A stretch of DNA of 64,000 nucleotides, taken from the NCBI RefSeq assembly GCF_009177065.1, contig NZ_WEZF01000008.1, positions 62,001 through 126,000 of the forward strand, read 5' to 3'. The position numbers and the translations under genes were made by a program. Below are positions 14,828-16,651 of the stretch, in pieces. Position 1 is the first letter of the stretch; each line of letters starts with the position of its first letter. Under the pieces are notes generated by a model, which saw nothing but the letters and a program-made list of their open reading frames with translations, was not told the origin of the DNA and did not search any database. The stretch comes from Tautonia marina (GTDB lineage Bacteria > Planctomycetota > Planctomycetia > Isosphaerales > Isosphaeraceae).

Positions 14828-15841
14828 TCAAAGAATGCGATCGACCGCCTCGGCCACCCGTCGGCACTCGGCCATCATCTTGGCGAAGGCCTCGGGGGTG
14901 ATCGTCTGGGCGCCGTCGCTCATGGCGTGTTCGGGGTCGTCGTGCACCTCGACCATCAAGCCATCGGCTCCGGCGGCAATTGCGGCCCGAGCCATCGCGG
15001 GCACCAGCGCCGCCTTGCCCGTGCCGTGCGACGGATCGACCACGACCGGCAAGTGCGTCTTCATTTGCAAATACGGGACCGACGCCAGCGGCAAGGTGAA
15101 GCGCGTGTGATCCTCAAACGCTCGAATCCCGCGCTCGCAGAGCATCACATTCTCATTCCCACGATCGAGAATATACTCGGCCGCCAGCAGAAACTCCTCC
15201 ATTGTCGCGCTCATGCCGCGCTTCAGGAAGGCCGGCTTCCCTGAGTCTCCCACAGCCTGCAACAACTGATAGTTCTGCATATTGCGCGCCCCGATCTGGA
15301 GCACGTCGGCGTACTCGGCCACGACCGGCACGTGTTCCGGCGCCATCACCTCAGTCACAATGGCCAGGCCGGTTTCGGCCCGAGCCGTGGCCAGCATCTT
15401 CAGGCCATCCACCTTGTGCCCCTGGAAGCTGTACGGGCTGGTCCTCGGCTTGTACGCCCCGCCCCGAAGGCCGGTCGCCCCCAGCTCCTTCAGTTTCCGG
15501 GTGATGCTGACAATCTGTTCCTCACTCTCGACCGAGCACGGGCCGGCGATCACCCCGATCCGCTTCCCGCCCACCTCCAGCGATCCGGCCCGGACCACCG
15601 TCCGCTCGGTTTTCAGTTCCGACGACGCCCGCTTGTAGGGCGCCATGATCGGCAAGACCTTGACCACTCCCTCGGCCGGCTCCAGGGCCTCGACCAACCC
15701 CGGTCGCTCCTGACCAATGGCGGCAATCACTGTTTGGTGTTCTCCCACAATGACCTGCGGTTGCAAGCCGAGCGAGGAAATATGATCGCGCACGTGGGAA
15801 ATCTGTGCTTCGGTCGCGTCCGGCTTCATCACGACAATCAC
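14828..15841 (-). CDS. aroF: 3-deoxy-7-phosphoheptulonate synthase, type I-beta
   Basis: A 337-residue DAHP synthase that joins phosphoenolpyruvate and erythrose-4-phosphate, the first step of the shikimate pathway. Residues 1-90 form a ferredoxin-like regulatory domain ([15 protein letters not shown]), and the rest is the catalytic barrel with [25 protein letters not shown], the [16 protein letters not shown] segment, and [14 protein letters not shown] chose the GTG at 15841 because it gives the family start and is preceded by AGAGGG; an ATG four codons later is also possible. The N-terminal domain suggests feedback control. The long non-coding region upstream has a leader-like architecture and may control it. 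Confidence 0.92.
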
Positions 15842-16014
15842 GGCAATCCGCCCTCTGTTTGGTGGGATCAAGGTCTCCGATCGGTCTGCCGACCCCACGC
15901 TGGGACCGACCGCTCACGACCCTTCGGCACCTTCACTCCCTGGCTCGAAAACCAATCGAATCGAATCAAACGGGTCCGAAACGGAACGACGTTGAGAACG
16001 AGAACAACGAAATC

Positions 16015-16052
16015 AAAAAAAAAAGCCCCGAGACCTGCGAAGGTCTCGGGGC
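16015..16052 (-). terminator. Strong Rho-independent terminator
   Basis: On the minus strand, a perfect 11-bp stem (GCCCCGAGACC with GGTCTCGGGGC) closes a six-base loop and is followed by ten consecutive T (10 A at 16015-16024 on the plus strand). It ends a leftward transcript about 170 bases before the aroF start. No protein gene ends close to it, so it must terminate either an RNA or a leader transcript. Confidence 0.88.
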
Positions 16053-16346
16053 TTGGGGTGATTCGTCTGGCTCGACCTTTCATGTCGAGTCACAATCCCA
16101 GCATTGCCCGGCGACCTGCGGCCGTCCACTCGGTAAACGAGCGGGCCCACCACCAATACCCGAAGGTAAAGGAATAGGAGGCGCGGCCAAACGTCGCAAC
16201 AGGCTGATCCAAGAGTCTCCGGCTCCAACCAATCAGGAAGACAAGAGTAGGGGGGTAGACCGCGTCGCGTCAACCGCAACGCTCACCGCCCGAAAGCACT
16301 CGGGATTGAGCAATTGAACTTACCAGACCTGATTCCCGAAATGCAA

Positions 16347-16378
16347 GAGGCCGGACCCGGCGACCCGGATCCGGCCTC
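16347..16378 (-). terminator. Strong hairpin, possible internal terminator or attenuator
   Basis: A hairpin of about 13 bp (GAGGCCGGA pairs with TCCGGCCTC; the centre has one G-U pair). On the minus strand it is followed by TTGCATTT, which is only partly U-rich. It lies between the leader reading frame at 16442-16477 and the U10 terminator at 16015-16052. Its position fits an attenuator, but the weak U tract leaves this uncertain. Confidence 0.5.
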
Positions 16379-16441
16379 ACTCGCCGCGTTGAACGGCAAG
16401 TCTCAGGGTGCGGCTGCCCGACGGGCACCCGTCGGCTGCCG

Positions 16442-16477
16442 TTAGGCAAGCCGCCTCTGGTTGTCGCTGCTACACAC
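16442..16477 (-). CDS. Candidate 11-codon leader peptide with perfect ribosome-binding site
   Basis: GTG at 16477-16475 starts the peptide MCSSDNQRRLA, which ends at TAA (16444-16442). Seven bases before the GTG is AGGAGG, part of a 15-base stretch on the minus strand (complement of 16479-16493) that is perfectly complementary to the 16S rRNA 3' end GGATCACCTCCTTTC. A GC-rich hairpin (16411-16441) begins right after the stop. This is the usual order of an attenuation leader: promoter, strong ribosome site, short peptide, hairpins. No Trp, Phe or Tyr codon is present, so aromatic amino acid sensing by peptide content is not supported. It could also be an unrelated small protein or a ribosome-binding RNA. 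Confidence 0.5.
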   Translation of the reverse strand: MCSSDNQRRLA

Positions 16478-16622
16478 AGGATCACCTCCTTTCAAAACCG
16501 GTTCCCCCTGATCGCCGCCGGAGTCCAGCCTCGGACGGTTCAGAGCTCCAGTCTCGCCGCGCCACGTTCACGCGGCCCGTAGAGGCCGACCCTGCGTGTG
16601 TCCGCCTTGGGTCGACAGGGTA

Positions 16623-16651
16623 ACTATAGCCGCGCGGCAACCCCGAATCAA
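16623..16651 (-). promoter_or_regulatory. Sigma-70-like promoter driving a leftward leader transcript
   Basis: On the minus strand, TTGATT (complement of 16646-16651) and TATAGT (complement of 16623-16628) are separated by exactly 17 bases. This is close to the consensus. Transcription should start near 16615 and run left through the leader peptide, the hairpins and the U10 terminator towards aroF. The remaining parts of 15842-16798, notably 16053-16346, hold no gene that I can support. Confidence 0.65.

Follow-up and report, generated by a model that had tools for sequence, protein, structure and literature searches.

A candidate free-standing small RNA of Tautonia marina with a conserved mini-ORF and putative ribosome-docking signals at its start and stop

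Does the leader-like transcript predicted upstream of aroF in Tautonia marina, with its long match to the tail of 16S rRNA, govern aroF as an attenuation leader, encode a small secreted or signalling peptide, or bind ribosomes in its own right? The original prediction had offered all three readings for this locus, which lies in a window of 64,000 nucleotides (the whole stretch of DNA that was analysed). Our analysis suggests that the minus strand of the window encodes a small free-standing RNA of ~270 nt (approximately 16616 to 16349, the 5' end being predicted from the promoter) that carries a mini-gene, of a type with 9-18 codons, flanked by putative ribosome-docking signals at its start and its stop (Table 1).

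Table 1. Predicted parts of the RNA and its neighbourhood in the Tautonia marina window.
Feature	Coordinates	Strand	Basis
Sigma-70 type promoter: TTGATT (16651-16646), 17-nt spacer, TATAGT (16628-16623)	16623-16651	-	sequence
5' structured domain with two hairpins; start near 16616 predicted from the promoter	16494-16616	-	RNAalifold, 22 of 23 family sequences
SD1, 15 nt complementary to the 16S rRNA 3' end	16479-16493	-	sequence
Mini-ORF GTG...TAA, MCSSDNQRRLA	16442-16477	-	sequence; ORF kept in 97/97 distinct Planctomycetota sequences
SD2 GAGGCGG within the mini-ORF, ending 6 nt 5' of the stop codon (-6)	16451-16457	-	-6.4 kcal/mol with the 16S tail
Stop-codon hairpin, C-GACG-G loop; stop codon between outer and inner helix	16410-16454	-	13 pairs, 96 distinct rows
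Terminator-like GC-rich hairpin, weak U tract in the window	16349-16376	-	sequence and fold; double changes in alignment columns 263-301
Separate aroF leader ORF MDQPVATFGRASYSFTFGYWWWARSFTEWTAAGRRAMLGL, outside the RNA	16090-16212	-	sequence
U10 intrinsic terminator, assigned to the aroF attenuator, outside the RNA	16015-16052	-	sequence; terminator in 17 of 23 family loci
aroF (DAHP synthase, named by eye), neighbour	14828-15898	-	ORF; a similar protein follows in all 23 family loci

The block preceding the mini-ORF, GAAAGGAGGTGATCC (henceforth SD1), is complementary to 15 nt of the 16S 3' end of the same genome (16S antisense on contig C50, locus L001), and the predicted match is thus borne out against the organism's own ribosome. 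The 12-mer AAGGAGGTGATC occurs at eight places in the 7.07 Mb genome and its reversed control at none; apart from the 16S gene, complementarity reaches 15 nt only at SD1, 14 nt at one place and 12 nt at five. With a chance expectation of ~0.009-0.013 per genome for a 15-mer, the match at SD1 is not due to chance. The promoter that had been proposed, with its 17-nt spacer, is present in the sequence as well. In all 23 loci of the window's family (f1) the best promoter-like site lies 117-130 nt 5' of the SD; at most 3.3% of 60 shuffles produced a site as good in 18 of these loci, and 6.7%-21.7% did so in the other five. The second hairpin of the original prediction is also real, but it is followed in the window only by TCTTGCATTTC, and the U10 terminator that had been attached to it, though real, lies ~300 nt beyond and apparently belongs to another element.

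A DNA similarity search recovered the RNA in 23 of 40 relatives, all of them within the 25 genomes of family f1, with none among the 15 others. A covariance model (R1), built from 29 of the 39 sequences at hand and searched at E 0.05, had hits in 121 of 244 Planctomycetota genomes (a single hit in 112) and none in the other 123; the weakest hits, close to the cut-off, are uncertain. The addition of 60 loci brought 90 of the 121 matching genomes in hand for inspection, the other 31 having weaker matches, and a model search on 100 loci (88 of those 90, 11 family loci and L114) yielded 100 matches that were aligned. A strict sequence pattern was found in 15 of 392 genomes and its reversed control in two; one of its matches, L172, was rejected as this RNA since it opens an ordinary 501-residue frame.

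Is the mini-ORF a genuine reading frame? In the window it runs over 11 codons (GTG TGT AGC AGC GAC AAC CAG AGG CGG CTT GCC TAA, with the TAA at 16444-16442), and both the frame opened by GTG and the hairpin at its stop are present as predicted, the hairpin overlapping the TAA. An ORF of 9-18 codons exists in all 97 distinct Planctomycetota sequences (window included), a count slightly biased towards completeness since the start was picked by position and an ORF length of 8-20, with no sequence discarded for want of an ORF; in the +1 and +2 frames such an ORF appears in 6 and 5 sequences, and in shuffled tails in 21.9 on average and 35 at most. SD1 lies 4-5 nt from the start in 77 of 94 sequences. 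Across the 97 sequences the start may be GTG (67), ATG (19) or TTG (11) and the stop TAG (43), TAA (30) or TGA (24), a variety that points to a translated frame and is unlike a fixed RNA motif.

A second Shine-Dalgarno-like element (SD2) precedes the stop codon. In the Planctomycetota set, 7-nt windows pair with the 16S tail most strongly at -7 from the stop, a sharp minimum in energy (mean -7.4 kcal/mol), where 92% of the windows reach -4 kcal/mol or lower compared with 15% after shuffling; within the search range of -12 to -5, such a window exists in 94 of the 97 sequences. Between SD2 and the stop, ATG is absent and any NTG occurs in 17 sequences against 28.5 expected, which makes SD2 an unlikely signal for a second start. 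From SD2 to the last sense codon, which occupies the P site once the stop has entered the A site, there are 3-5 nt in 68 of 94 sequences, as bounded by the search range. The motif GAGGTGG (at least 6 of 7 positions) is found in 58 of 97 sequences and is split over two reading frames (33 and 25), which argues that it is conserved as nucleotides. Part of this conservation could be structural or due to selection, because SD2 partly overlaps the 5' strand of the outer helix, the source sequences of R1 contain SD2 and ~16 of the 100 aligned loci are also in R1. In prfB (RF2), a Shine-Dalgarno sequence closer to the stop promotes frameshifting; the two elements are alike in holding an SD-like sequence positioned relative to a stop codon, and differ in that the spacing from SD2 to the stop is relaxed here.

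Outside Planctomycetota, we took 104 loci (of 112, among the matches listed by a genome-wide pattern scan from which no frequencies are drawn) that had been fetched for SD1 and GTG only, with ORFs of 9-35 codons. Their energy minimum lies at -8, and 62% have a window of -5 kcal/mol or lower at -12 to -5, compared with 24% after shuffling; fractions are used here since some shuffled means are distorted by a placeholder energy for unpairable windows. We grouped these loci by peptide type and not by taxonomy, and all group figures hold among the matches listed. With a Rhodobacterales-type peptide (30 loci), every locus has an SD2 window of -5 or lower (100% versus 46% shuffled), and the last residues differ while a G-rich block is kept. 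The MSH/MSD type (49 loci) gives a broad signal (59% versus 18%), and the 12 Bradyrhizobium-type loci have no SD2 window of -5 or lower (0% versus 7%), with a weak mean of -4.0. Several matches listed by the same scan, for example L110, L123 and L129, look like plain strong-SD genes and were set aside.

The RNA is also folded beyond expectation, with a z-score of -5.8 for 16625-16340 relative to 200 shuffles. RNAalifold, run on 22 family sequences (the 23rd, L016, was left out for an insertion), gave a consensus in which 17 of 43 predicted pairs carry pairing-preserving double changes, including those of the two hairpins of the 5' domain (alignment columns 52-74 and 91-117). This family-only consensus includes the inner stop helix but gives the 3' strand of the outer one a different partner. 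Over 96 distinct rows, the 13 pairs of the stop hairpin are paired in 85% of cells, with 295 double-change cells versus 85 in shuffled and 32-90 in slid controls; pairs with at least one double change are no more numerous than in shuffles (13 versus 11.9), and pair counts are favoured by an alignment that had been fitted to the same structure. Invariant blocks of the family include GGAGGTGA, GTG, AACCAG and GACGGG. Frame and hairpins are both conserved, the opposite of the finding that was to speak against the original prediction. In the isolated fold SD1 is buried, with a mean unpaired probability of 0.23 in the 22 family RNAs, 0.01 in the window and 0.31 in 77 other loci, and ribosome loading may therefore need a trigger.

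Knowing that the RNA sits next to aroF, one could take it for a cis leader that regulates this gene by transcription attenuation through the mini-ORF. An aroF-like protein is encoded downstream on the same strand in 23 of 23 f1 loci, so that the architecture was indeed found upstream of aroF in these relatives, where the RNA is always beside aroF and may have some effect on it in cis, and a Phycisphaerales locus (L053) has a shikimate-kinase-like (aroK-like) ORF downstream, as judged by eye. Aromatic amino acid attenuators of the trpL/pheL type likewise consist of a short leader ORF and then hairpins near an aro gene; unlike them, the window mini-ORF has no run of Phe, Tyr or Trp, and its peptide lacks aromatic residues altogether, with one aromatic codon each in the family members L010, L021 and L023. 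Moreover, a leader ORF containing SYSFTFGYWWWARSFTEW, with nine aromatic residues in 18, lies between the RNA and aroF, after a promoter-like TTGACG at 16273 and before the U10 terminator. Of the 23 family loci, 17 have a terminator with a run of at least five U at +340 to +510, and 18 have an 18-residue window with at least six aromatics, the latter count being made without a shuffled comparison and including a poly-U artefact in L003. The stretch 16212-16015 thus appears to be a separate, classical-looking attenuator of aroF, with a predicted function of its own. Outside f1 the RNA has unrelated genes beside it, and the constant upstream placement of an attenuator was not seen in other lineages: with a home-made gene caller based on codon-position composition, whose individual calls may err, 80 loci outside f1 had a called downstream gene, which shares the strand of the RNA in 44 and faces the other way in 36; a mixed locus set gave 79 and 50. 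Neighbouring proteins form lineage-specific clusters, named by eye as a ppk-like gene, a Der-like GTPase, a prfB-like gene and aroF. The variety of the downstream genes and their frequent opposite orientation outside f1 make the RNA look like a stand-alone gene, and together with the neighbouring attenuator led us to reject it as the leader of aroF, a role that is unsupported by these data and that we hold to be quite improbable.

The remaining explanations concern the mini-ORF and its SD. If a small functional peptide were the product and the strong SD merely ensured high yield, the in-frame ORF in 97 of 97 sequences would be accounted for, as would the D-N-Q-(R/G)-(R/W) common to most f1 peptides. 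Between clades, however, the peptide becomes unrecognisable while SD1, SD2 (in different frames), the stop position and the helices are kept. Since start, stop and nucleotide motifs stay constant as the peptide changes freely, we consider a peptide product, including the secreted or signalling peptide suggested at the outset, very improbable. Somewhat easier to entertain, if still unlikely, is an RNA that resembles CreT, with an efficiently loaded mini-ORF tying up a rare tRNA and slowing growth or sensing that tRNA. The mini-ORFs are rich in TGT, AGT and AGG (75, 67 and 57 of 1109 codons), codons whose frequencies in 32 genes called in the window are 1.6, 3.5 and 5.5 per 1000, a comparison that crosses genomes of different composition. 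Against a codon need, TGT outnumbers TGC by 75 to 9 in the 97 mini-ORFs, and since TGT and AGT share tRNAs with the common TGC and AGC, a nucleotide motif is the better explanation; Cys codons occur in no more than 58 of the 97 ORFs, and the excess perhaps stems from an RNA motif, TGTAGT. CreT of H. hispanica is reported to depend on consecutive rare codons and a stem-loop as well as on a start codon with a strong SD (PMC8501985), and the CreT RNA toxins (CreTA, in haloarchaea and others) thus resemble the window RNA in their strong SD, mini-ORF and stem-loop behind it; they differ, on the same evidence, in being repressed by a CRISPR-associated guide and in acting via consecutive rare codons. 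Unlike CreT, our RNA mostly occurs once per genome and has a longer ORF and a second SD; the window ORF has no tandem AGA/AUA and no tandem rare codons after its start, its TGT and AGG being rare but separate. Finally, an antisense-like RNA might cover the 16S 3' end, in 16S maturation or as a block to the 30S subunit, with the ORF incidental. Complementarity of 12-16 nt does span the single-stranded 16S tail, beyond what initiation needs, yet start codon, frame, stop and SD2 are all conserved, and the block beyond AAGGAGGTGA is variable in family f1, leaving this the least probable of the readings considered.

Does a known family include this RNA? At Rfam gathering thresholds there was no match in the window; at relaxed thresholds CC2171 (RF01867) alone stood out, with 39 bits (E 5.7e-07 on 361 bases) over the whole model (1-159), short of the gathering cut-off of 75. 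Matches to it at E 0.01 were found in 10 of 25 relatives, none of the 25 being above the cut-off, and the best scores in the genomes of the alphaproteobacterial loci range from 91.5 down to 28.7 bits, with five of 16 searched genomes above the cut-off. CC2171, of Caulobacter and other Alphaproteobacteria, is like the window RNA in having GAAAGGAGGUGAUCC, a GUG at the same spacing, a structured region and a GC-rich terminal hairpin; the window RNA also shows the family's anti-16S block with a GUG at a fixed distance behind it, and the alphaproteobacterial loci resemble the window RNA in their mini-ORFs and partly in SD2. Unlike CC2171, the window RNA has a ~120-nt 5' domain and a C-GRCG-G hairpin at the stop. 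The alignment to the model has many non-standard pairs in its middle, with a terminal hairpin that fits. Common descent is possible, but unproven, because the shared SD block seems, by eye, to give most of the score. No function is stated for CC2171 in the available parts of two papers that name the family. In the available text of Schrader et al. (2014), two previously predicted ncRNAs of Caulobacter are translated and most are not, CC2171 being unnamed there (PMC4117421). Short ORFs on annotated sRNAs of Sinorhizobium meliloti are likewise translated, and these translated or dual-function sRNAs share with our RNA a short ORF on an sRNA, the two-SD architecture going unmentioned in the parts of that report at hand (PMC10117765). 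Titles, the openings of abstracts and some passages of the literature on small RNAs complementary to 16S, or on an SD before a stop, yielded no description of either.

Taken together, the comparative evidence favours the last option of the original prediction, a putative RNA that binds ribosomes: the locus probably encodes a translated sRNA, a structured small mRNA of ~270 nt that stands alone and would load ribosomes and park them at the stop. As read from the sequence, this RNA has a promoter-like site of its own, a 5' domain that folds and a hairpin resembling a terminator. Near-maximal complementarity and the conserved start suggest that 30S subunits would load via SD1 onto the mini-ORF. 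After 9-18 codons the ribosome would stand at the stop, where SD2, spaced from the P-site codon as in ordinary initiation, could pair with the 16S tail that had bound SD1. The hairpin right behind the stop, which is conserved, would together with SD2 hold the terminating or post-termination ribosome, and the outer helix, formed on its 5' side by the end of the ORF, would open or close depending on whether a ribosome is present. In what is the weakest step, the RNA might serve to sense or buffer either the supply of ribosomes or their termination and recycling, and neither make a peptide nor control aroF in cis.

We also suggest, tentatively, that such RNAs may form a class of bacterial housekeeping RNAs in Planctomycetota and Proteobacteria in which a mini-ORF clamped by an SD at either end takes up ribosomes and keeps the terminating one at the stop codon, thereby measuring or buffering free ribosomes, termination or recycling. 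Should this hold, a single RNA gene retained in much of a phylum would act on the ribosome via the 16S tail at both initiation and termination, Rfam CC2171 would gain a testable function, and a natural probe would become available for the behaviour of ribosomes between termination and recycling. It would also exemplify how start, stop and frame can be retained although the peptide between them seems to be of no consequence.

Several smaller observations accompany these results. A pattern search in the order of a betaproteobacterial locus hit 10 of 80 genomes, and its control one. Three of these loci (L274, L275 and L277), with a TACACT box, a mini-ORF with QG(S/N/R)TG and a strong terminator hairpin, are apparently relatives of the putative RNA class; L278 and L279 have 80-residue ORFs instead and were rejected as the same RNA. 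Another five (L272, L273, L276, L280 and L281) with AAGGAGGTGATCCGATG conserve the ORF N-terminus MSSRLL, the rest being variable. By eye, an arfB-like (GGQ) ORF often follows the Rhodobacterales-type RNAs (L045, L049, L085, L104, L105, L143, L145 and others), and a prfB-like ORF follows one Planctomycetota group (L246, L263 and relatives). In the Bradyrhizobium-type loci L096, L132 and L076 the mini-ORF holds TCACCTC, a mimic of the 16S anti-SD that is predicted to pair with the RNA's own SD1; the Rhodobacterales-type RNAs use CCCATCTCCTT downstream instead as the predicted partner of SD1.
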